A stretch of DNA of 38,115 nucleotides from positions 1-38,115 of IMG/VR virus record IMGVR_UViG_3300024346_000211; one strand, given 5' to 3'. How positions within the stretch are numbered: the first letter of the stretch is position 1; the number at the start of each line of letters is the position of its first letter. This document shows positions 4,781 to 33,419 of the stretch, one piece after another. Under the pieces are notes generated by a model. It searched no databases, was not told the origin of the DNA, and saw only the letters and a program-made list of their open reading frames with translations. The DNA comes from a virus. Made by a program: the position numbers and the translations under genes.

Positions 4781-5632
4781 ATGGACAACACCGACTACCA
4801 CGCCCACCCAGCGATCAGCAAAAGCCATCTCGACCAAGTGGCGCGCAGCCCGCTGCATTACTGGGCATCCTTCCTCGATCCCAATCGCCAGCCGCGAGAA
4901 ACCACGCCGGCCATGGCCATCGGCACCGCAGTTCACACCCATGTCTTAGAGCTGGACCAATGGGACGCGCGCTATGCGATTGCACCCGAGAGCATCGACC
5001 GTCGCACCAAGATGGGGAAGGCCGAGTGGGAGGTGTTCACCACCGCTGCTACCGGTCGCACGGTGTTGAGCCGCGCTGATGCCGAGCTGGTGATGCGGAT
5101 GGGCCATGCGGTCTACAGCCACCCAGCCGCGGCGATGCTGCTCAAGCATCTGCCGGGCAAGGCCGAGACCACCCACATGTGGGACGATGCCGCCACTGGC
5201 TTGCAGTGCAAGTGCCGGCCGGACTGGCTGACTGATGACGGCAGCCTGATCATTGACTTGAAGACGACCGAGGATGCGAGCCCGGCTGGATTCCGCAAGT
5301 CGATCGCCAATTGGCGATACCACGTCCAAGCGGCTTGGTATCTGAACGGCATCGAGCAGGCCACCGGCACCCGGCCCGATCAGTTCATCTTCATCTGCGT
5401 TGAGAAGAAGGCGCCGTTCGCGGTGGCCGTCTATGCGGCGGATGCGGAGATGATCCAGATCGGCAACGAGGCAGCAGCCCGCGACCTCGACGTGCTTGCC
5501 ACCTGCAAAGCGGCTGGCGCGTGGCCGGGCTACAGCGATCAGATCGAAACCATCAACCTGCCCAGCTGGATGCGGCCGCGGCCTGATGGATCTATGCCAC
5601 AGCAACCACCCACCGAGATCGAGACTTACTGA
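4781..5632 (+). CDS. RecE-like PD-(D/E)XK exonuclease (DUF3799 type)
   Basis: A 283-residue nuclease of the RecE/exonuclease VIII-like group. Seen: 'AISKSHLDQVARSP' near the N-terminus, GTAVH (48-52) with the early conserved His, CRPDWL (145-150) with the catalytic Asp, IIDLKTT (157-163) with the D-x-K pair, and 'YHVQAAWYL' as the conserved Gln motif after the core. Such enzymes degrade one strand of duplex DNA and hand the single strand to an annealing protein. The next gene, RecT-like, starts within its stop codon (TGATG), which suits a coupled exonuclease-annealase pair. No clear ribosome site precedes the ATG. Only 25 bases separate it from the divergent helicase gene. Confidence 0.88.
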   Translation: MDNTDYHAHPAISKSHLDQVARSPLHYWASFLDPNRQPRETTPAMAIGTAVHTHVLELDQWDARYAIAPESIDRRTKMGKAEWEVFTTAATGRTVLSRADAELVMRMGHAVYSHPAAAMLLKHLPGKAETTHMWDDAATGLQCKCRPDWLTDDGSLIIDLKTTEDASPAGFRKSIANWRYHVQAAWYLNGIEQATGTRPDQFIFICVEKKAPFAVAVYAADAEMIQIGNEAAARDLDVLATCKAAGAWPGYSDQIETINLPSWMRPRPDGSMPQQPPTEIETY

Positions 5633-6279
5633 TGGACAGCACAGCATTGACAACAACCACCCCGCAGGGTGTGTTCAGCGGCATCCAAGCATTTGAGGAA
5701 GCCCAGCGGATCGCAAAGGCGCTGGCCAGCAGCACGCTGATTCCGCAGCAGTTCCAGGGGCAGGCGGGTTACGCCAACTGCTTGGTGGCGCTGAACATCA
5801 GCCGGCGGATGGGCATGGACCCGCTGATGGTTATGCAGAATCTGCATATCATCCATGGCCGCCCGAGCTGGAGCAGCCAGTTCATCATCGGCCTGGTCAA
5901 CGGCTGCGGTCGCTTCAGCCCGTTGCGGTACGACATCAGCGGCAAAGGCGACACGCTGGCCTGCACCGCGGTAGCTACTGAGCTGCGCACCGGCGAGGAG
6001 CTGCGCGGCCCTGAGGTGACGATGGCGATGGCCAAGCGTGAAGGATGGGCAACCAAAAGCGGCAGCAAGTGGGCAACAATGCCCGATCTGATGATCCGTT
6101 ACCGAGCCGCGGCATTCTGGGGCAGGCTGTTCATCCCCGAGCTGCTGGTCGGCATCCAGACTCAAGAGGAAGTGCTGGACATTGAGCCGGTGACGGTAAC
6201 TGCTGAGCCACGGGTGGAGGTGGCTGACCTAAACAAAAAGATTGCGGAGGTGCCCAACGATGACGACGACATCTTCTGA
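5632..6279 (+). CDS. RecT-like single-strand annealing protein with SSB-like tip
   Basis: A 215-residue protein of the phage RecT-like group. Visible motifs are 'FEEAQRIAKALASS', 'ANCLVALNISRRMGMDPLMVMQNLHIIHGRPSWSS' (spread over residues 45-85), 'VNGCGRFSPL' and 'MIRYRAAAFWGRL'. It should coat single strands left by the preceding exonuclease and anneal them to homologous DNA. The last residues, DDDDIF, resemble the acidic tip of bacterial SSB (DFDDDIPF) and follow a short flexible linker. The start overlaps the exonuclease stop by one base. The final 20 bases overlap the next gene and carry its ribosome site. Confidence 0.8.
   Translation: MDSTALTTTTPQGVFSGIQAFEEAQRIAKALASSTLIPQQFQGQAGYANCLVALNISRRMGMDPLMVMQNLHIIHGRPSWSSQFIIGLVNGCGRFSPLRYDISGKGDTLACTAVATELRTGEELRGPEVTMAMAKREGWATKSGSKWATMPDLMIRYRAAAFWGRLFIPELLVGIQTQEEVLDIEPVTVTAEPRVEVADLNKKIAEVPNDDDDIF
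6246..6251 (+). promoter_or_regulatory. Ribosome binding site inside the RecT-like gene
   Basis: GGAGGT, 8 bases before the ATG at 6260. The site lies within the 3' end of the RecT-like coding region and supports the internal start of the small HTH gene. Confidence 0.6.
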
Positions 6280-6457
6280 GTTTTTGACGGATCAGCAACT
6301 GGCAGCGCGATGGCAAATCCATCGCCAGACCTTGCTGCGATGGCGCCGGCAATCAACCGGGCCAGTTTATGTGCGCATTGAAGGGCGCGTGCTCTATCCC
6401 CTGGCCGAGGTGGAGCAATACGAAAAGGCCAACACCATTACCCACGAACAACCGTGA
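6260..6457 (+). CDS. Small helix-turn-helix protein (excisionase/AlpA-like fold)
   Basis: A 65-residue protein with a MerR/excisionase-type winged helix: 'LTDQQLAARWQIHRQTLLRWRR' as the helix-turn-helix, followed by a beta wing ending 'RVLYPLAEVEQYE'. This fold serves in excisionases and small phage regulators. No integrase is visible, so a regulatory role in the recombination operon is more likely than excision. GGAGGT lies 8 bases before the ATG at 6260, inside the RecT-like gene, and this decides the start over an upstream TTG. Its stop overlaps the GTG of the next gene (GTGA). Confidence 0.75.
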   Translation: MTTTSSEFLTDQQLAARWQIHRQTLLRWRRQSTGPVYVRIEGRVLYPLAEVEQYEKANTITHEQP

Positions 6458-6831
6458 CTTTCAAAACCAAAGGCGCCATCTTCAAGAACACACCTGAGAA
6501 GCTGCAGCAGCGGCTTGGCGATCGCTATGACGCCGGGAAAAAATATCCCGATGTCGATGGCGTGTTTGGCATTAAGGAAGAAGACCGGATGGCGTTTGCC
6601 AGCTATGTGATGAACGCCGAGCCGAACGACAAAGGTGAGATCCCGGTTCGGATCACGGGCTACAACAACACCAGCCAGTCGGGGGTGAAGTATCTTGGGT
6701 TGACGATCGAGCCTGACTACAAAACCCAGAAGGGGATTGAGGAAAAGCTGGCTGCTGCAGGTGCTGCCCAGAGCTTGGCTACTGCCACTGATGGCGTGGT
6801 GGTTGCTGTGAATGATGACGACCTGTTCTAG
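6454..6831 (+). CDS. SSB-like phage protein with acidic C-terminal tip
   Basis: A 125-residue protein that may be a single-strand DNA binding protein. It has a basic N-terminus ('FKTKGAIFKNTPEKLQQRL'), a predicted beta-rich core ('GVFGIKEEDRMAFASYV', 'IPVRITGYNNTSQSGVKYLGLTI'), a low-complexity Ala/Val linker and the terminus NDDDLF. Position after the nuclease and annealing genes and an SSB-type tip support the call. An OB fold is inferred, not proven. GTG start at 6454 overlaps the stop of the HTH gene. Its last four bases overlap the convergent 67-residue gene. Confidence 0.55.
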   Translation: MTFKTKGAIFKNTPEKLQQRLGDRYDAGKKYPDVDGVFGIKEEDRMAFASYVMNAEPNDKGEIPVRITGYNNTSQSGVKYLGLTIEPDYKTQKGIEEKLAAAGAAQSLATATDGVVVAVNDDDLF

Positions 6832-7031: not shown

Positions 7032-7037
7032 TTGTCC

Positions 7038-7072
7038 GGGGCAGATTGCCCCATGTTGCCCATGAATTGCCC
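7038..7072. promoter_or_regulatory. Operator-like palindrome and helically spaced TTGCCC motifs
   Basis: GGGGCA-GAT-TGCCCC (7038-7052) is a perfect inverted repeat directly before the ATG at 7053, between two divergent genes. TTGCCC occurs at 7046, 7056 and 7067, with spacings of 10 and 11 bases, about one DNA turn each. The second and third copies are inside the start of the zinc-ribbon gene. It could be an operator for either neighbour, or an RNA hairpin covering the start codon. Confidence 0.4.
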
Positions 7073-7382
7073 AGTTTGCAGTCACCCTCGCCACCGCGCA
7101 GTGGTGACGAACAGCCAGATGGCTGACCAGACGGTGCGCAAACGTGCGTGCGAGAACTGCGGAAATGTCTGGTACACGGTGGAGGTGACGGTGCCGAGCT
7201 ATGCAGTGGGGTGGAGCGCTAGGCATTTGCGAAAGCCGGTGCTGCGGGTGCCTATTGACGTAACGGTGGGTCACACGCGAATGCGGGCAAGCCATGAGGA
7301 AGCGCAGGATCAGCTGGCCAACCTGACGCAGGAAGCAAACGAGCGATCATCGGCACGGGCCGACGCACGTCACGGATTGTGA
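7053..7382 (+). CDS. Zinc-ribbon protein, possible transcription regulator
   Basis: A 109-residue protein. The N-terminal half holds two Cys pairs, 'CPVCSHPRHRAVV' and 'CENCGNVWYTVEV', about 27 residues apart, forming a zinc ribbon like that at the N-terminus of NrdR or in Ogr/Delta-type phage activators. The C-terminal half is basic and helical. It follows the operator-like repeats at once and is divergent from the 67-residue gene, which suits an early regulator. ATG at 7053 is chosen; ATG at 7062 is also possible. A binding target cannot be named from sequence. Confidence 0.6.
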   Translation: MLPMNCPVCSHPRHRAVVTNSQMADQTVRKRACENCGNVWYTVEVTVPSYAVGWSARHLRKPVLRVPIDVTVGHTRMRASHEEAQDQLANLTQEANERSSARADARHGL

Positions 7383-7460
7383 CAGAGGGGATGGCGTAAT
7401 GCGCCGTCTGCGGTGTATGATTCATGCATCGGAGGCAACCGCCTCCACCCACGCATCACC
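7383..7460 (+). promoter_or_regulatory. Leader with hairpin before the small-gene operon
   Basis: This 78-base gap is one of few breaks in the plus-strand chain of genes. It contains a perfect inverted repeat, GGAGGC-AACC-GCCTCC (7431-7446), whose left arm holds a Shine-Dalgarno-like GGAGG, about 25 bases before the ATG at 7461. A TATGAT hexamer (7416-7421) could be a -10 box, but I see no matching -35. A promoter or a translational control hairpin for the following operon is plausible, not shown. Confidence 0.3.
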
Positions 7461-7655
7461 ATGATTGCTACCACTTTCCTTTTGATCTGGAAGCTGCTGC
7501 TGCCACTGCTGGTGCTGGTCGCCTTGATCGACTGGCTCACTGCTTCCGACAATCGCCGCATCCGAATCTTGCGCAGCACCGGCCTTAGCCAGCGCGCCAT
7601 TGCAGACCGCCTCAACCTGTCCCGCTACCGCGTCCGTCAGGCGCTTGCATCATGA
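7461..7655 (+). CDS. Membrane-anchored helix-turn-helix protein
   Basis: A 64-residue protein made of one hydrophobic helix ('FLLIWKLLLPLLVLVALIDWL', about residues 5-25) followed by a basic stretch and a resolvase/sigma-like helix-turn-helix ('GLSQRAIADRLNLSRYRVRQAL', about 41-62). The layout predicts an inner-membrane anchor with a cytoplasmic DNA-binding tail. It might tether phage DNA to the membrane or act as a membrane-linked regulator. The ATG at 7461 is chosen because the protein then starts at the membrane helix. The stop overlaps the next start (ATGA). Confidence 0.7.
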   Translation: MIATTFLLIWKLLLPLLVLVALIDWLTASDNRRIRILRSTGLSQRAIADRLNLSRYRVRQALAS

Positions 7656-7795
7656 TCACGAATCCTTGGGTCAACCGCATCACCGCCTTGGTGGTGCTCG
7701 CCGCTATCTACGCAGCTGGATATGCCGGCGGCAAAGAAGCAGCCATCCAAGCCCACCAAAACCACCCTGCTTGCCACGGCAACCTAAAGCCATGA
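7652..7795 (+). CDS. Small membrane protein, unknown
   Basis: A 47-residue protein with one hydrophobic segment ('ITALVVLAAIYAAGYAGG', about residues 10-27) and a short polar, His-rich C-terminus. ATGA overlaps join it to the membrane-anchored HTH gene upstream and to the next gene downstream, so it is very likely translated. It may act with its upstream membrane partner. No family was recognised. Confidence 0.6.
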   Translation: MITNPWVNRITALVVLAAIYAAGYAGGKEAAIQAHQNHPACHGNLKP

Positions 7796-12487: not shown

Positions 12488-13570
12488 TCAGTAGTCCCAG
12501 CGGACTCTAGGCCTACCCTTGCGGATGCCAAGGTGAACGAAGCCTTTAGCTGCGCCGTATCCAACGCTGTAGGGCCATTCACGATCCACCCATGCCTGGA
12601 CCGCGTTGATGTCTGCGCCGTCAACGTAGAAGTCCACAGCACCTACTCCCGGCGCGTCATAGAGGTGCTCGCTGTTGCTGGCGCCACCCACGGATCTGTT
12701 GATGGCCGGTGGCCGGTGGCCCGAGGTGATTGTGATGCGCTTGCCTCCAAACTGGACGCGCACCTTTTCCAAAAACGTCGCCAGCTCTGCAGCGGTGTCC
12801 ACCTGGTGCTGCGCCACGAAACGCCGGGCCGGCTCACCTAGGGCAAACTCGCCAAGGGTGAAGTGCTGCGACAGCTTGGTGCTAAACGGGTCGCTGGGCT
12901 TGACCTTGGCGGGGCGAGGTGGCGGCGGGGGTGGCTGCGTGCCAGTCCATAGGGCGCCTTCCGCGATGCGGCGCCGCTTGAGGCCGGCTTCGACGTTGGT
13001 GCCCGGATTGCGGTAGAGGAGCAAGGCAGCGGGCACTGCAGCCCAGTCCTTTTCGCGCAGCTCGCGGCTGATGGTTTCAAAGCCTGGCGCGCCATAGAAG
13101 CCGCTGCCAAGGTTGTAGGCGAAGCTGATCAGCGCGCACTTCTGATGATCGGCCATCTCGCCCCATGCGGGGATTGAGGCGCGCAGCTTTTCAGCAATGC
13201 GGTCCACCTCCTGGCGGAGCAGCATGTCCGCCTCGATAACGTTGATCTTGTCGCCCTGCTTGACCTTGCGGCCGTCGCTGTAGCGGGTGGTGCCATAGCC
13301 GATCGTTGCCACGTCCCAGCCGTGCAGCGGGTCGGCGTAGGCCTCAAGGTGGCAGCCCTCGAACTCCTTGATGATCTTCAGCGCTGCGGCCAGGTCGGAC
13401 TGCTTGCCGTCTTGGCTCCATGTTTGGAACCATGCCCGGTCGCGGCGCATGGCCACGGCATAGCCGTTTACCGCTAGATCCTGTTCCAGCATTTCAATCG
13501 CGGCCGACTGGTGCGGCAGTTTTCGATAGAAACGGAACAGCTGCTCTAACGTGATCGGTGCGGCGGTCAT
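12488..13570 (-). CDS. Two-domain endolysin: GH24 muramidase plus M15 peptidase
   Basis: A 360-residue lysis enzyme. Residues 1-57 form a small domain ('ITLEQLFRFYRKLPHQSAAIEML...AMRRDRAWFQTW') that I associate with cyanobacterial phage lysins. Residues 60-210 are a T4-lysozyme-type muramidase, with the catalytic triad equivalents Glu71, Asp80 and Thr89. A Pro-rich linker (about 212-225) leads to an M15-type peptidase, with 'SGHRPPAIN', 'SEH' (near 302), 'AVD' (near 313) and 'FVHLG' (near 346) supplying zinc ligands. It should cut both glycan and peptide bonds of peptidoglycan. No signal peptide is seen, so a holin is expected; candidates lie upstream. ATGA overlap with the previous gene. Confidence 0.88.
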   Translation of the reverse strand: MTAAPITLEQLFRFYRKLPHQSAAIEMLEQDLAVNGYAVAMRRDRAWFQTWSQDGKQSDLAAALKIIKEFEGCHLEAYADPLHGWDVATIGYGTTRYSDGRKVKQGDKINVIEADMLLRQEVDRIAEKLRASIPAWGEMADHQKCALISFAYNLGSGFYGAPGFETISRELREKDWAAVPAALLLYRNPGTNVEAGLKRRRIAEGALWTGTQPPPPPPRPAKVKPSDPFSTKLSQHFTLGEFALGEPARRFVAQHQVDTAAELATFLEKVRVQFGGKRITITSGHRPPAINRSVGGASNSEHLYDAPGVGAVDFYVDGADINAVQAWVDREWPYSVGYGAAKGFVHLGIRKGRPRVRWDY

Positions 13571-13848
13571 CGCTTGATGTTGCGGAGGGCAGCCTTGATG
13601 GGGTCGTAGAGGCCGAGCACGGCGCTCACTTGGGTGGCGGTAGCAATGTGGCCGAGCTTTTCTTCGATGGCGTCAGTTACGACAGCTTGCACCGCTAGTG
13701 GCTGGGCGTGATCTACCAACATAGATGGCAGCTCAATGTCGAGCTTGGCGAAGATTGCGGGCAGCTCTTTGCGGAGCGCACGATCCACCGCCAGCTTGAG
13801 CAGGGTGCGACCTAGATCTAGTGCAATGGTACGGAAGATGTTGGTCAT
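13567..13848 (-). CDS. Lysis-cassette protein of unknown role
   Basis: A 93-residue protein, helical throughout, with 'MTNIFRTIALDLGRTLLKLAVDRALRKEL' as an amphipathic N-terminal helix and a second helical half ending 'DPIKAALRNIKR'. No clear membrane span. It lies between the holin candidate and the endolysin, with ATGA overlaps on both sides, so a lysis-related or holin-regulating role is possible. The ATG at 13848 is preferred over one 33 bases upstream because it sits in the ATGA overlap. Confidence 0.55.
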   Translation of the reverse strand: MTNIFRTIALDLGRTLLKLAVDRALRKELPAIFAKLDIELPSMLVDHAQPLAVQAVVTDAIEEKLGHIATATQVSAVLGLYDPIKAALRNIKR

Positions 13849-14039
13849 TGCGGTGACTTGGTGAGGATGCCGCCAATCCAACCAGCGGCTGTACCTACCG
13901 CAGCATAGACAGCTGAAGACTGCGGATCACAGTTGGATGGCGTGCGAACACGGCAAACGGTAAGGTCGATACCGCCAATGGTGATGCCTGCTGCTAGCAG
14001 CCCCACTAAGCAGCGAAGTAGGTAGCTGCGTTCATTCAT
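13845..14039 (-). CDS. Putative holin (two membrane segments)
   Basis: A 64-residue protein with two hydrophobic segments, 'LLRCLVGLLAAGITIGGIDL' (about 7-26) and 'AVYAAVGTAAGWIGGILT' (about 43-60), separated by a polar loop. A small protein with two membrane spans immediately before an endolysin gene is the classic holin layout. It overlaps both neighbours by ATGA. Sequence alone cannot exclude another membrane role. Confidence 0.55.
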   Translation of the reverse strand: MNERSYLLRCLVGLLAAGITIGGIDLTVCRVRTPSNCDPQSSAVYAAVGTAAGWIGGILTKSPQ

Positions 14040-31031: not shown

Positions 31032-33419
31032 TCAGAGGGTGTTGTTGCCGCGGCTGAAGGATTCAGGATGGCGAACAGCAATGTCCACGTCCTGCATTGC
31101 CACAACGCGCACGGTGCCCGATGTGCTGTGGGTGTAGGGGTCCACCATCAGATCCAAGCCGGAGAAGTAACCAATGATCAGATCGGCAAAGTTGCCAAAC
31201 CACAGATCATTAGCTGCCACCTGGTTGGAAAGCACGCCGGGGTAACCGTTGACTTCGCCATTCTCCATGATGAAGATGCCGGAGCCCGCGTCCTTCTTCG
31301 TCGTCTTCAGGTTGCCGCGCATAGCAGCGTTCATCAAATAGACAGGGTTGCCCATCAATGCGTTGGCGGTTGCCACGTCGCTCTCAAGCGCCACCACCTC
31401 AGCGAAGGTAGGAGCATCATTAGCGAAGTCTTCGGTGTTGATGCCGGTGGTTAGCTTGAGGCCGAGGGGCTCGCTGTTGCTACCGGTGCCGTAAAGGCCA
31501 GACAGGTCAATCTTCAGGGCAAGAACAGTGGCCAGATCGGTGCGGATCATGTTCTCCACGTCGATGCTCGACTGGAGCATCAGGCGGCGGCTGTAGTCAG
31601 TGAAAGCGGCAACCGTTTTAGGGGTCAGGCTCACCTGATCAACAGTTTGCTGGCTCTCGGTAGGCGAACCAGATTCAGCCACCCAGTAGGCGGTGCCAGC
31701 GCCGGATTGGCGAGGGATGGCAACGTTGCCGGTAAGGCCGGTCAGCACGGTGGCGCCAGCTTGGTCCAGTGCCGACGCATTGCGCAGCAGGTCGATGAAG
31801 CTGCCAGCATCAAGATCAGTAGCAACCAGGTTGCCGCCAGCTGACGCAGTGCCAACGTTCAGGTCACGGCGCAGCACATCCTGAGGGATGGTGATGCCAC
31901 GCGATTGACGGCCCAGCTTTGCAGCTGCAGCGTCAGATGCTTCGATCTCAAAAGCAGCAGCCTCACGGGCTGAGCGATCGGTCGGGTTGGCTAGATAGTT
32001 GATGGCACGCAGGAAGGAGAACTTACGGCTCTCCTGTGCGGTAAGGCCAATTTCAGCGGCGCTCATGTTGACAGGCTCCTGTTGAATGTTCATTTTGTCA
32101 AGAACAGCAGCCCGTGCCTCGTCGATTGAACGACCAGACTCGACCAGCTGGCGGCCCAGCTCGCCCATGTTGTGCTTATCGCACATGGCAGAGATTTCAG
32201 CAATGCGGGAGCGCTCAGCCTCAACGGCTTCGGCCCGCACCACGGCCAGATCGGTGGCGTTGGTTTCCATTGAAGGAAGGGGATCAGGGGATGGTGCTGC
32301 CGAAGCAGCGGGTTTTGTGGGCGTCAAAGCGCGGCCGATGCCCACGGTTTTGTCAGCAGGAACGCTGACGATCGACACCTCGTAAGGTGCCCAGGCAGTG
32401 GCAACAAAGTCACCGCTGCCGCGCTCCTCCATTTTGTCAATGGAGTAGCCGAAAGACACGTTCCGTAGAACGCCGTCCTTCACATCACCCAATATCTCTT
32501 GGGCAAAGGCATTGCGGCTGAACCGCACCCGCGCATAACCGCGGCGCCCTTTGCTGTCGATTCTTGCGCCCTCAACAACACCAATCACTCGGTCCGGGTT
32601 GTGGTTAAACAGCAACGGCGCGCCATCGTTCAAGCGGCTCAAGTCAGCCGCGCTGGCCTCATGGCTCAGGATCTCGTTGCCGAAGTAACGAGCAACGGGG
32701 AACTCAGAACTGAACGGGAACTCGTAGGTGCGATCCTCCACCTCGTCAAAGGTGGTCAGTTCAGCGCGTTGATATTTGCCGATGCCAGTCATGGCCCGCA
32801 GTGCGTCGATCTTGGTCAGCGTCGAGAACTTATGCCCAACCATCGTCTCGGTCGCCTCCCAGCCTTCATCGCCTTCGCTGTAGATCCTGATCAGCGCAGC
32901 CGGATCCTCAAGGGTGGCTTCAATGCTGAACTCAGTCCCAGGCACATTCAAGCTGCCTTCTCGAAGCACGTTTTCAATTCGGCCCCGCGCTGTGCCACCG
33001 CTTGAATCCCACTGAACGAAATCACCATCGCTCAATTCATTAGGTTCAGCCCGGTCGGCAGCCATCGCGCGATCTTCTTGCAATGTCTTGATTCTATCGG
33101 CTTTTGCGCTAGCCCATACTTGACCATCATCTCCACCCCATGCCGCCCATGCAACACGGCCAGGTGATGGATAGCCGTCTTCATCAGGACTAAACCCTTC
33201 GCCTTGCTTATCGACTTCATGCCTGGCGAACCAAGCCGCCATCGTGATCACCGTGTCTGGACTCAACTCATCGCCGCTCAATATCTGGCTGGCCCGGTTC
33301 GCTGCCACCTCAGTGCCACCGGGCTCGCCGTCAGCTTTCCACTCGCGGTAACGCTCCGCTTCGGTGCGCATCCCATCGGTTGGCATCAAGTTGATCTCAG
33401 TGCCGTTGACGTTCGCCAT
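31032..33419 (-). CDS. Fused prohead protease and HK97-type major capsid protein
   Basis: A 795-residue polyprotein with four parts. Residues 20-110 are a Trp-rich domain ('YREWKADGEPGG...GRVAWAAWGGDDG'). Residues 128-205 resemble a Tudor-like domain ('GDFVQWDSSGGTARGRIE'). Residues 225-365 are an S78-type prohead protease with 'PLLFNHNPDRVIG' (catalytic His) and 'RNVSFGYS' (catalytic Ser). After a helical scaffold-like stretch (385-450) follows the HK97-fold capsid (460-795), with 'GGNLVATDLDAGSFIDLLRN' and 'FGNFADLIIGYF'. It should self-assemble and cleave itself. ATG at 33419 overlaps the portal stop (TGATG), preceded by GAGG. Confidence 0.88.
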   Translation of the reverse strand: MANVNGTEINLMPTDGMRTEAERYREWKADGEPGGTEVAANRASQILSGDELSPDTVITMAAWFARHEVDKQGEGFSPDEDGYPSPGRVAWAAWGGDDGQVWASAKADRIKTLQEDRAMAADRAEPNELSDGDFVQWDSSGGTARGRIENVLREGSLNVPGTEFSIEATLEDPAALIRIYSEGDEGWEATETMVGHKFSTLTKIDALRAMTGIGKYQRAELTTFDEVEDRTYEFPFSSEFPVARYFGNEILSHEASAADLSRLNDGAPLLFNHNPDRVIGVVEGARIDSKGRRGYARVRFSRNAFAQEILGDVKDGVLRNVSFGYSIDKMEERGSGDFVATAWAPYEVSIVSVPADKTVGIGRALTPTKPAASAAPSPDPLPSMETNATDLAVVRAEAVEAERSRIAEISAMCDKHNMGELGRQLVESGRSIDEARAAVLDKMNIQQEPVNMSAAEIGLTAQESRKFSFLRAINYLANPTDRSAREAAAFEIEASDAAAAKLGRQSRGITIPQDVLRRDLNVGTASAGGNLVATDLDAGSFIDLLRNASALDQAGATVLTGLTGNVAIPRQSGAGTAYWVAESGSPTESQQTVDQVSLTPKTVAAFTDYSRRLMLQSSIDVENMIRTDLATVLALKIDLSGLYGTGSNSEPLGLKLTTGINTEDFANDAPTFAEVVALESDVATANALMGNPVYLMNAAMRGNLKTTKKDAGSGIFIMENGEVNGYPGVLSNQVAANDLWFGNFADLIIGYFSGLDLMVDPYTHSTSGTVRVVAMQDVDIAVRHPESFSRGNNTL

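Follow-up and report, generated by a model that had tools for sequence, protein, structure and literature searches.

In transcriptional regulators such as CadC and ToxR, a single helix tethers the DNA-binding domain to the inner membrane, and minimal helix-turn-helix (HTH) domains are dimerized by the membrane helices; these proteins carry an N-terminal winged HTH together with a large periplasmic sensor. To our knowledge, few phage proteins are both membrane-anchored and DNA-binding. The p16.7 protein of phage phi29 has been reported to bind the terminal protein and single-stranded DNA, recruiting phage DNA to the membrane (PMC4974454). In this work we analyze a 38,115-nucleotide stretch of viral DNA (IMG/VR record IMGVR_UViG_3300024346_000211, referred to here as the window) that encodes a small protein, TM-HTH, predicted to carry a minimal HTH behind one membrane helix, followed by a second small protein, P2 (Table 1).

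The resemblance to p16.7 lies in general design. Both are small early phage proteins with an N-terminal membrane helix and a cytoplasmic DNA-binding domain, predicted in the case of TM-HTH. The neighboring genes are also alike, with phi29 gene 16.6 carrying a zinc-finger annotation and the neighbor of TM-HTH encoding a zinc ribbon. The two proteins differ in size (130 versus 64 aa) and in setting, with phi29 using protein-primed replication in a Gram-positive host whereas the window phage has primase/helicase and RecT genes. A profile comparison returned an hhalign probability of 0.4% over 8 columns, and homology to p16.7 was rejected for want of sequence or profile similarity. The parallel drawn in a previous sequence-only reading of this DNA, that of a membrane tether for phage DNA, is used here as a functional analogy only. 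With respect to CadC and ToxR, TM-HTH differs in that its HTH is C-terminal and not winged and in that it has no outer domain; fewer than 10 residues precede the membrane helix, and a periplasmic sensor domain is absent.

Table 1. Coordinates and supporting evidence for the features discussed; all rows refer to the window except the last.
Feature	Position	Strand	Evidence and remarks
Exonuclease VIII	4781-5632	+	phrog_412, E 4e-95; heads the early region
RecT-like annealing protein	5632-6279	+	phrog_561, E 6e-79; early region
Possibly SSB-like ORF	6454..6831	+	acidic ...NDDDLF C terminus; conserved neighbor in the exo-recT neighborhood
NrdR-like zinc-ribbon gene	7032..7382	+	precedes TM-HTH; PF22811, 29.9 bits vs cut-off of 27.2; start codon uncertain
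TGTnACA motif, TGTGACAG	7378..7385	+	conserved in A-branch promoters, with the -10 box about 30 nt further downstream
Degenerate CACCG-N4-CGGTG inverted repeat, CGCCGTCTGCGGTG	7402..7415	+	abuts the -10 box; candidate operator
Probable -10 box, TATGAT	7416..7421	+	inferred from position and conservation; no -35 consensus
Type III leader hairpin, GGAGGC-AACC-GCCTCC	7431..7446	+	directly before the TM-HTH gene
TM-HTH gene	7461..7655	+	64 aa; membrane helix about residues 3-25, predicted cytoplasmic HTH residues 29-64
ATGA stop/start overlap	7652..7655	+	couples TM-HTH and P2
P2 gene	7652..7795	+	47 aa; N terminus short, single membrane span (borderline), C-terminal tail rich in His
Endolysin	12488-13570	-	phrog_28234, E 6e-159
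Two-span holin-like ORF near the endolysin	13845-14039	-	64 aa; not recognized by PHROGs
S-2L TM-HTH ORF	MW334946.1, about 32632-32814 (= L082:5935-6117)	-	unannotated

The TM-HTH protein of the window (MIATTFLLIWKLLLPLLVLVALIDWLTASDNRRIRILRSTGLSQRAIADRLNLSRYRVRQALAS) reaches a higher hydropathy maximum than any other window ORF of 35-150 aa (Kyte-Doolittle, 19 residues), with the 19-residue mean peaking at 2.58 over residues 5-23. There are no charges N-terminal to this helix and nine K/R residues C-terminal to it, so the positive-inside rule predicts an N-out/C-in topology that would leave the HTH half, of pI 12, in the cytoplasm. Pfam searches yielded weak matches (E 3e-4 to 0.03) to HTH_38 (E 3e-4; 20.9 bits vs a curated cut-off of 27), Sigma70_r4 (E 5e-4; likewise under its cut-off), HTH_23 (E 4e-3; 17.4 vs 24.6) and HTH_7 (15.0 vs 23.8). 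The AF2 model of the window protein, computed from a 34-member alignment (pLDDT 89), places helices at residues 2-39, 44-50 and 55-63, the first of these being an unbroken rod that comprises both the membrane span and HTH helix 1. A second model, for the branch represented by Synechococcus phage S-CBS3 and built on an alignment of 16 (pLDDT 88), has a membrane helix at residues 2-25, a short break, and helices at 29-38, 43-50 and 54-62. In Foldseek comparisons, the last 33-38 residues of TM-HTH superpose at 0.6-1.4 A on the HTHs of NarL, DosR, SigF, gamma-delta resolvase (1gdt; 0.6 A over 33 columns), DeoR and ParB; no match attains E 0.001, and E-values stay near 1 because the matching domain is tiny, at about 35 residues. 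The sole near full-length structural match in the viral library is F4YCV4, a nameless 63-aa protein. The two models thereby confirm, at the level of predicted structure, a tri-helical HTH in the C-terminal half. Hydropathy, modeling and homologs with the same layout in viral contigs and two isolates all agree with the previous description of a 64-residue protein made of one membrane helix and a resolvase-like HTH. Its fold and motif are like those of the resolvase/transposase-type families HTH_7, HTH_38 and HTH_23 and of Sigma70 region 4, but the domain stands alone on a membrane helix, without a catalytic partner domain.

Full-length relatives of TM-HTH were found in at least 224 viral contigs in a scan of IMG/VR, and the best 80 of these 224 were read in detail. 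These 80 loci contain 52 distinct proteins of 63-64 aa, with coverage including both the membrane helix and the HTH, and the median dN/dS of TM-HTH is 0.30. The 224 relatives and the purifying selection rule out a spurious ORF; a GTG start at position 7413 was also discarded, as the extension is unconserved and would cross the leader hairpin. Residues M1 and G41 are invariant across branches and T5, L16, I23, W25, T27, S29, R33, R35, I47, R50, L51 and R59 nearly so, comprising a juxtamembrane set (W25..T27..S29) and a set within the HTH (R33, R35, G41, I47, R50, L51, R59). The layout is kept in branches that are merely 27-46% identical and that include two cyanophage isolates. In S-2L, an unannotated 60-aa ORF (MNTILCILVTIVAVFVGVILWVTETPTDRARRWHRSGVSQAKIADRLGVTRYRVRQMLAR), 46% identical to the window protein, stands alone and in antisense orientation, flanked by the tape-measure and minor-tail genes. 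In S-CBS3, the family member is gp41 (63 aa, 27% identical), which retains a canonical HTH motif (..RTIGQRLGISHTTARRW) and directly precedes a methylase/helicase gene, annotated as DNA methylase, with RepA, ssb and RusA nearby. P2 follows TM-HTH in neither isolate. Further members comprise small sets of S-2L-like and S-CBS3-like contigs and a variant in L111. Contigs of aquatic cyanophages commonly carry TM-HTH, yet the gene has escaped annotation even in S-2L, whose genome has been studied intensively; the two isolates make it directly testable. The gene in S-2L, a 2-aminoadenine phage, has a promoter-like TATACT of its own, a leader hairpin, and another hairpin right after the stop codon.

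Patterns for the window branch (A branch) had zero matches in 84,980 prokaryote genomes. A search of prokaryote genomes for the S-CBS3 branch returned two contigs, with one partial match and one full-length match, the latter on a Luminiphilus MAG contig of 7.7 kb and low coverage that is probably misbinned phage. Since prokaryote genomes yield just one or two probable phage/MAG contigs, we take TM-HTH to be a phage protein and reject a host or prophage gene; the phages that carry it probably seldom lysogenize. A weaker HTH match located 1-3 kb downstream in relatives corresponds to a separate, soluble protein wherever it could be read.

In our estimation TM-HTH probably binds DNA, given its fold, its basic charge and the preservation of its motif, and an HTH motif that stays canonical in divergent branches is what would be expected if the protein still reads DNA. 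The single most likely use of such a protein, to which we assign a probability of roughly 0.4, is to tether DNA at the membrane. TM-HTH would be produced early and expressed autonomously, placing a minimal HTH on the cytoplasmic membrane face, with the membrane helix joining the HTH straight in the A branch or via a 3-residue hinge in the S-CBS3 branch. As the helix would run directly into the HTH, the DNA-reading helix would be held within a few nanometers of the bilayer and, as space for a further dimer domain is lacking, dimerization would fall to the membrane helices. P2, made via translational coupling, would act as an accessory membrane subunit. The DNA held would be the phage genome or replication/recombination intermediates, and less likely host DNA. 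Capture of host DNA by a membrane-bound HTH, shutting the host down, would suit the early position and a strongly basic, generic HTH with no dedicated phage site shown; no host target was found, nothing else specific speaks against it, and we regard it as quite improbable. Under the tethering reading, TM-HTH would be about as small as a membrane-anchored DNA-binding protein can get.

The genomic neighborhood provides further context. The order exonuclease VIII, RecT, small HTH_17 protein, SSB-like ORF, zinc ribbon, TM-HTH and P2 is found in the window and largely kept in most relatives, and the window additionally encodes a VapE-type primase/helicase and a DEAD helicase. The ORF between the RecT and zinc-ribbon genes has no family match and is possibly an unrecognized single-strand DNA-binding protein. 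A position just downstream of these genes fits a DNA-related role for TM-HTH. It is harder to reconcile with a holin, pinholin or spanin-like lysis pair, which small one-span proteins in tandem might otherwise suggest and for which P2 gives a weak PHROG match to an Rz-like spanin that falls short of significance (E 0.012). The two genes lie on the + strand in the early recombination region, with the endolysin encoded 5 kb away on the - strand beside a holin-like ORF of its own, which is likely the holin, and an HTH would be out of place in such a protein. With the lysis genes located elsewhere, no endolysin adjacent and no significant family match, we disfavor a role in lysis and consider it extremely unlikely.

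Upstream of TM-HTH, the window presents the simplest form of leader, consisting of a promoter and a hairpin. The sigma-70 scan did not report the TATGAT hexamer as a -10 box. The leader hairpin has a folding energy of -12.9 kcal/mol (z -3.8), with 0 of 200 shuffles equally stable, and in the leaders that were read a hairpin lies shortly upstream of the TM-HTH start codon. An SD-like site before TM-HTH was seen in none of the best 80 of 224 relatives, nor in the window leader. The S-2L gene has a motif related to TGTnACA upstream (CTGTTACAG), at a different spacing. TGTnACAG occurs five times across the whole window against 4.7 expected, showing no enrichment, and was dismissed as a genome-wide motif of the window given this chance-level count. 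The CACCG-N4-CGGTG repeat is found with 0 mismatches in 12 distinct A-branch relatives, and may be an operator, of TM-HTH or of another regulator.

This repeat speaks for a membrane-bound transcription regulator, whose HTH would occupy an operator, perhaps at its own promoter, while membrane state or superinfection would be sensed by the membrane helix, either by itself or together with P2. Its conserved location against the -10 box and its full symmetry (7/7) in several relatives agree with such a function, and CadC and ToxR illustrate that minimal HTHs can be dimerized by membrane helices. Nevertheless, the few residues outside the membrane leave TM-HTH without a sensor domain, and the repeat is likewise present at the head of genomes in which other genes or RNAs open the slot, so that the HTH_17 or zinc-ribbon protein may be its owner. 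Moreover, the window copy is degenerate (one mismatch, 4/7 symmetric) and the S-2L and S-CBS3 promoters lack the repeat. On balance we judge regulation to be an unlikely primary function.

The junction between TM-HTH and P2 bears on both the tethering reading and its alternatives. The previous claim of an ATGA-coupled, 47-residue one-span protein stands with regard to coupling, the overlap being exact and present in 79 of the best 80 of 224 relatives; the span, in contrast, is borderline in the window form (KD 1.49, compared with 2.06 in the commoner 43-aa form). P2 occurs in forms of 43 aa (53 cases) and 47 aa (18, window included); in both, a single span follows a short N terminus and precedes a His-rich tail, and hhalign matches the two forms weakly (probability 18%, P 0.0014). 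Median dN/dS of P2 is 0.16-0.43. The 43-aa form has 266 relatives and, in the best 80 of these 266 loci, P2 is preceded by TM-HTH in 66 and by an HTH-less one-span protein in 13, and lacks any partner in one (L201). The replacement protein is MKQALTSDWGPTLYLWTAQLAEIVVAVYVSGLMLGAWLHRLNDRIARMVAS or a relative, with one span, no HTH and no match among annotated phages. This MKQALTSDWGP... protein was observed in the promoter-RNA-ATGA-P2 slot of L202, L203, L215, L219, L220 and L223-L226, as well as L200, L217, L221 and L222. TM-HTH is missing elsewhere in 8/8 contigs with the replacement, and the replacement is missing in 13/13 contigs with TM-HTH, on contigs that may be partial.

Because an HTH-less protein can fill the slot before P2, DNA binding is dispensable to the slot, and nothing argues more strongly than this exchangeability against a locus that serves DNA binding alone. 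Together with the S-2L gene, which stands alone outside the replication module, the HTH-less occupant cuts against a plain replication tether. It is instead compatible with a membrane-takeover or superinfection-exclusion module, in which the shared job of the slot would be performed in the membrane and the HTH would be auxiliary or serve protein docking. The mutual exclusion of the two proteins before the same P2 and the solitary, moron-like TM-HTH of S-2L are in line with such a module. A canonical HTH is nonetheless retained across branches, and the existence of TM-HTH without P2 (S-2L, S-CBS3) and of P2 without a partner (L201) indicates that a shared function is not required. We see this module as possible but doubtful, second to tethering and ahead of regulation.

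The leaders of relatives are more elaborate than that of the window. Among the best 80 relatives, 44 TM-HTH genes are immediately preceded by one of two structured RNAs that can replace each other, type I (28/80) or type II (16/80). The type I element spans about 113 nt, starts a few nt past the -10 box (ACGAG...GCCGGTTGGCCCGGC) and is predicted to fold into a pair of successive pseudoknots with two hairpins after them. Pairing holds in 97.7% of cells across 25 distinct sequences, as opposed to 27-42% when the structure is slid, a control that is favorable because the structure was derived from the same sequences, so that the nine pairs with two-sided changes constitute firmer evidence; 0 of 500 shuffles attain any of five measures. 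Type II has a conserved loop (GGACAAGAGA), with 99.3% paired and four pairs with two-sided changes. Single-sequence folding of either leader, which is blind to pseudoknots, does no better than shuffles, and the case for both RNAs rests on covariation, pseudoknots included. Comparison of the leader elements with Rfam 15 gave no gathering match in seven sources and none at E <= 1 on targeted stretches, and assignment to tRNA, tmRNA or an Rfam family was discarded. Judged by covariation, these are two previously undescribed leader RNAs, absent from Rfam.

A covariance-model search for type I detected a single copy in each of 11 genomes among 15 records; the window has none. Downstream of 80 type I copies located by pattern are 23 TM-HTH genes, 19 HTH-less one-span proteins, 13 copies of a 65-aa soluble ORF, two P2-like proteins and assorted others. 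One-span membrane proteins are therefore the most frequent partners of this RNA, an association that also favors the membrane-takeover alternative. The type I leader of S-CBS3 shares up to about 90% DNA identity with A-branch leaders while the proteins are 27-32% identical, which argues that leader and gene are swapped separately. Type II often lies behind type I in tandem (L060, L113, L122). We tentatively put forward an integrated reading, possible though still doubtful, in which cyanosiphophages possess an exchangeable early membrane slot composed of a promoter, swappable leader RNAs (alone or in tandem), a one-span protein (TM-HTH as a rule, else the HTH-less type) and P2; its TM-HTH form would clamp phage DNA to the cyanobacterial membrane, and the new RNA class would set synthesis. 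If true, TM-HTH would be a minimal membrane DNA-docking protein, unlike p16.7. Most genes paired with the leader RNAs encode small membrane proteins, and these RNAs, for which translation control, RNA stability and antitermination are candidate functions, provide a separate lead for cyanophage gene control.

Additional copies of both elements were recorded. Type I copies include L083:4098-4213, L005:4870-4983 and L004:1509-1624, among others, and type II copies L008 (about 4890-4980), L105:7001-7095 and L113:5560-5654. Type II also heads an unrelated 61-aa ORF (MPRKQPT) in L104, L115, L131 and L132. In Synechococcus phage S-CBS1 (L135:3930-4080), an unannotated chimeric leader, type II in its 5' part and type I in its 3' part, precedes gp37.
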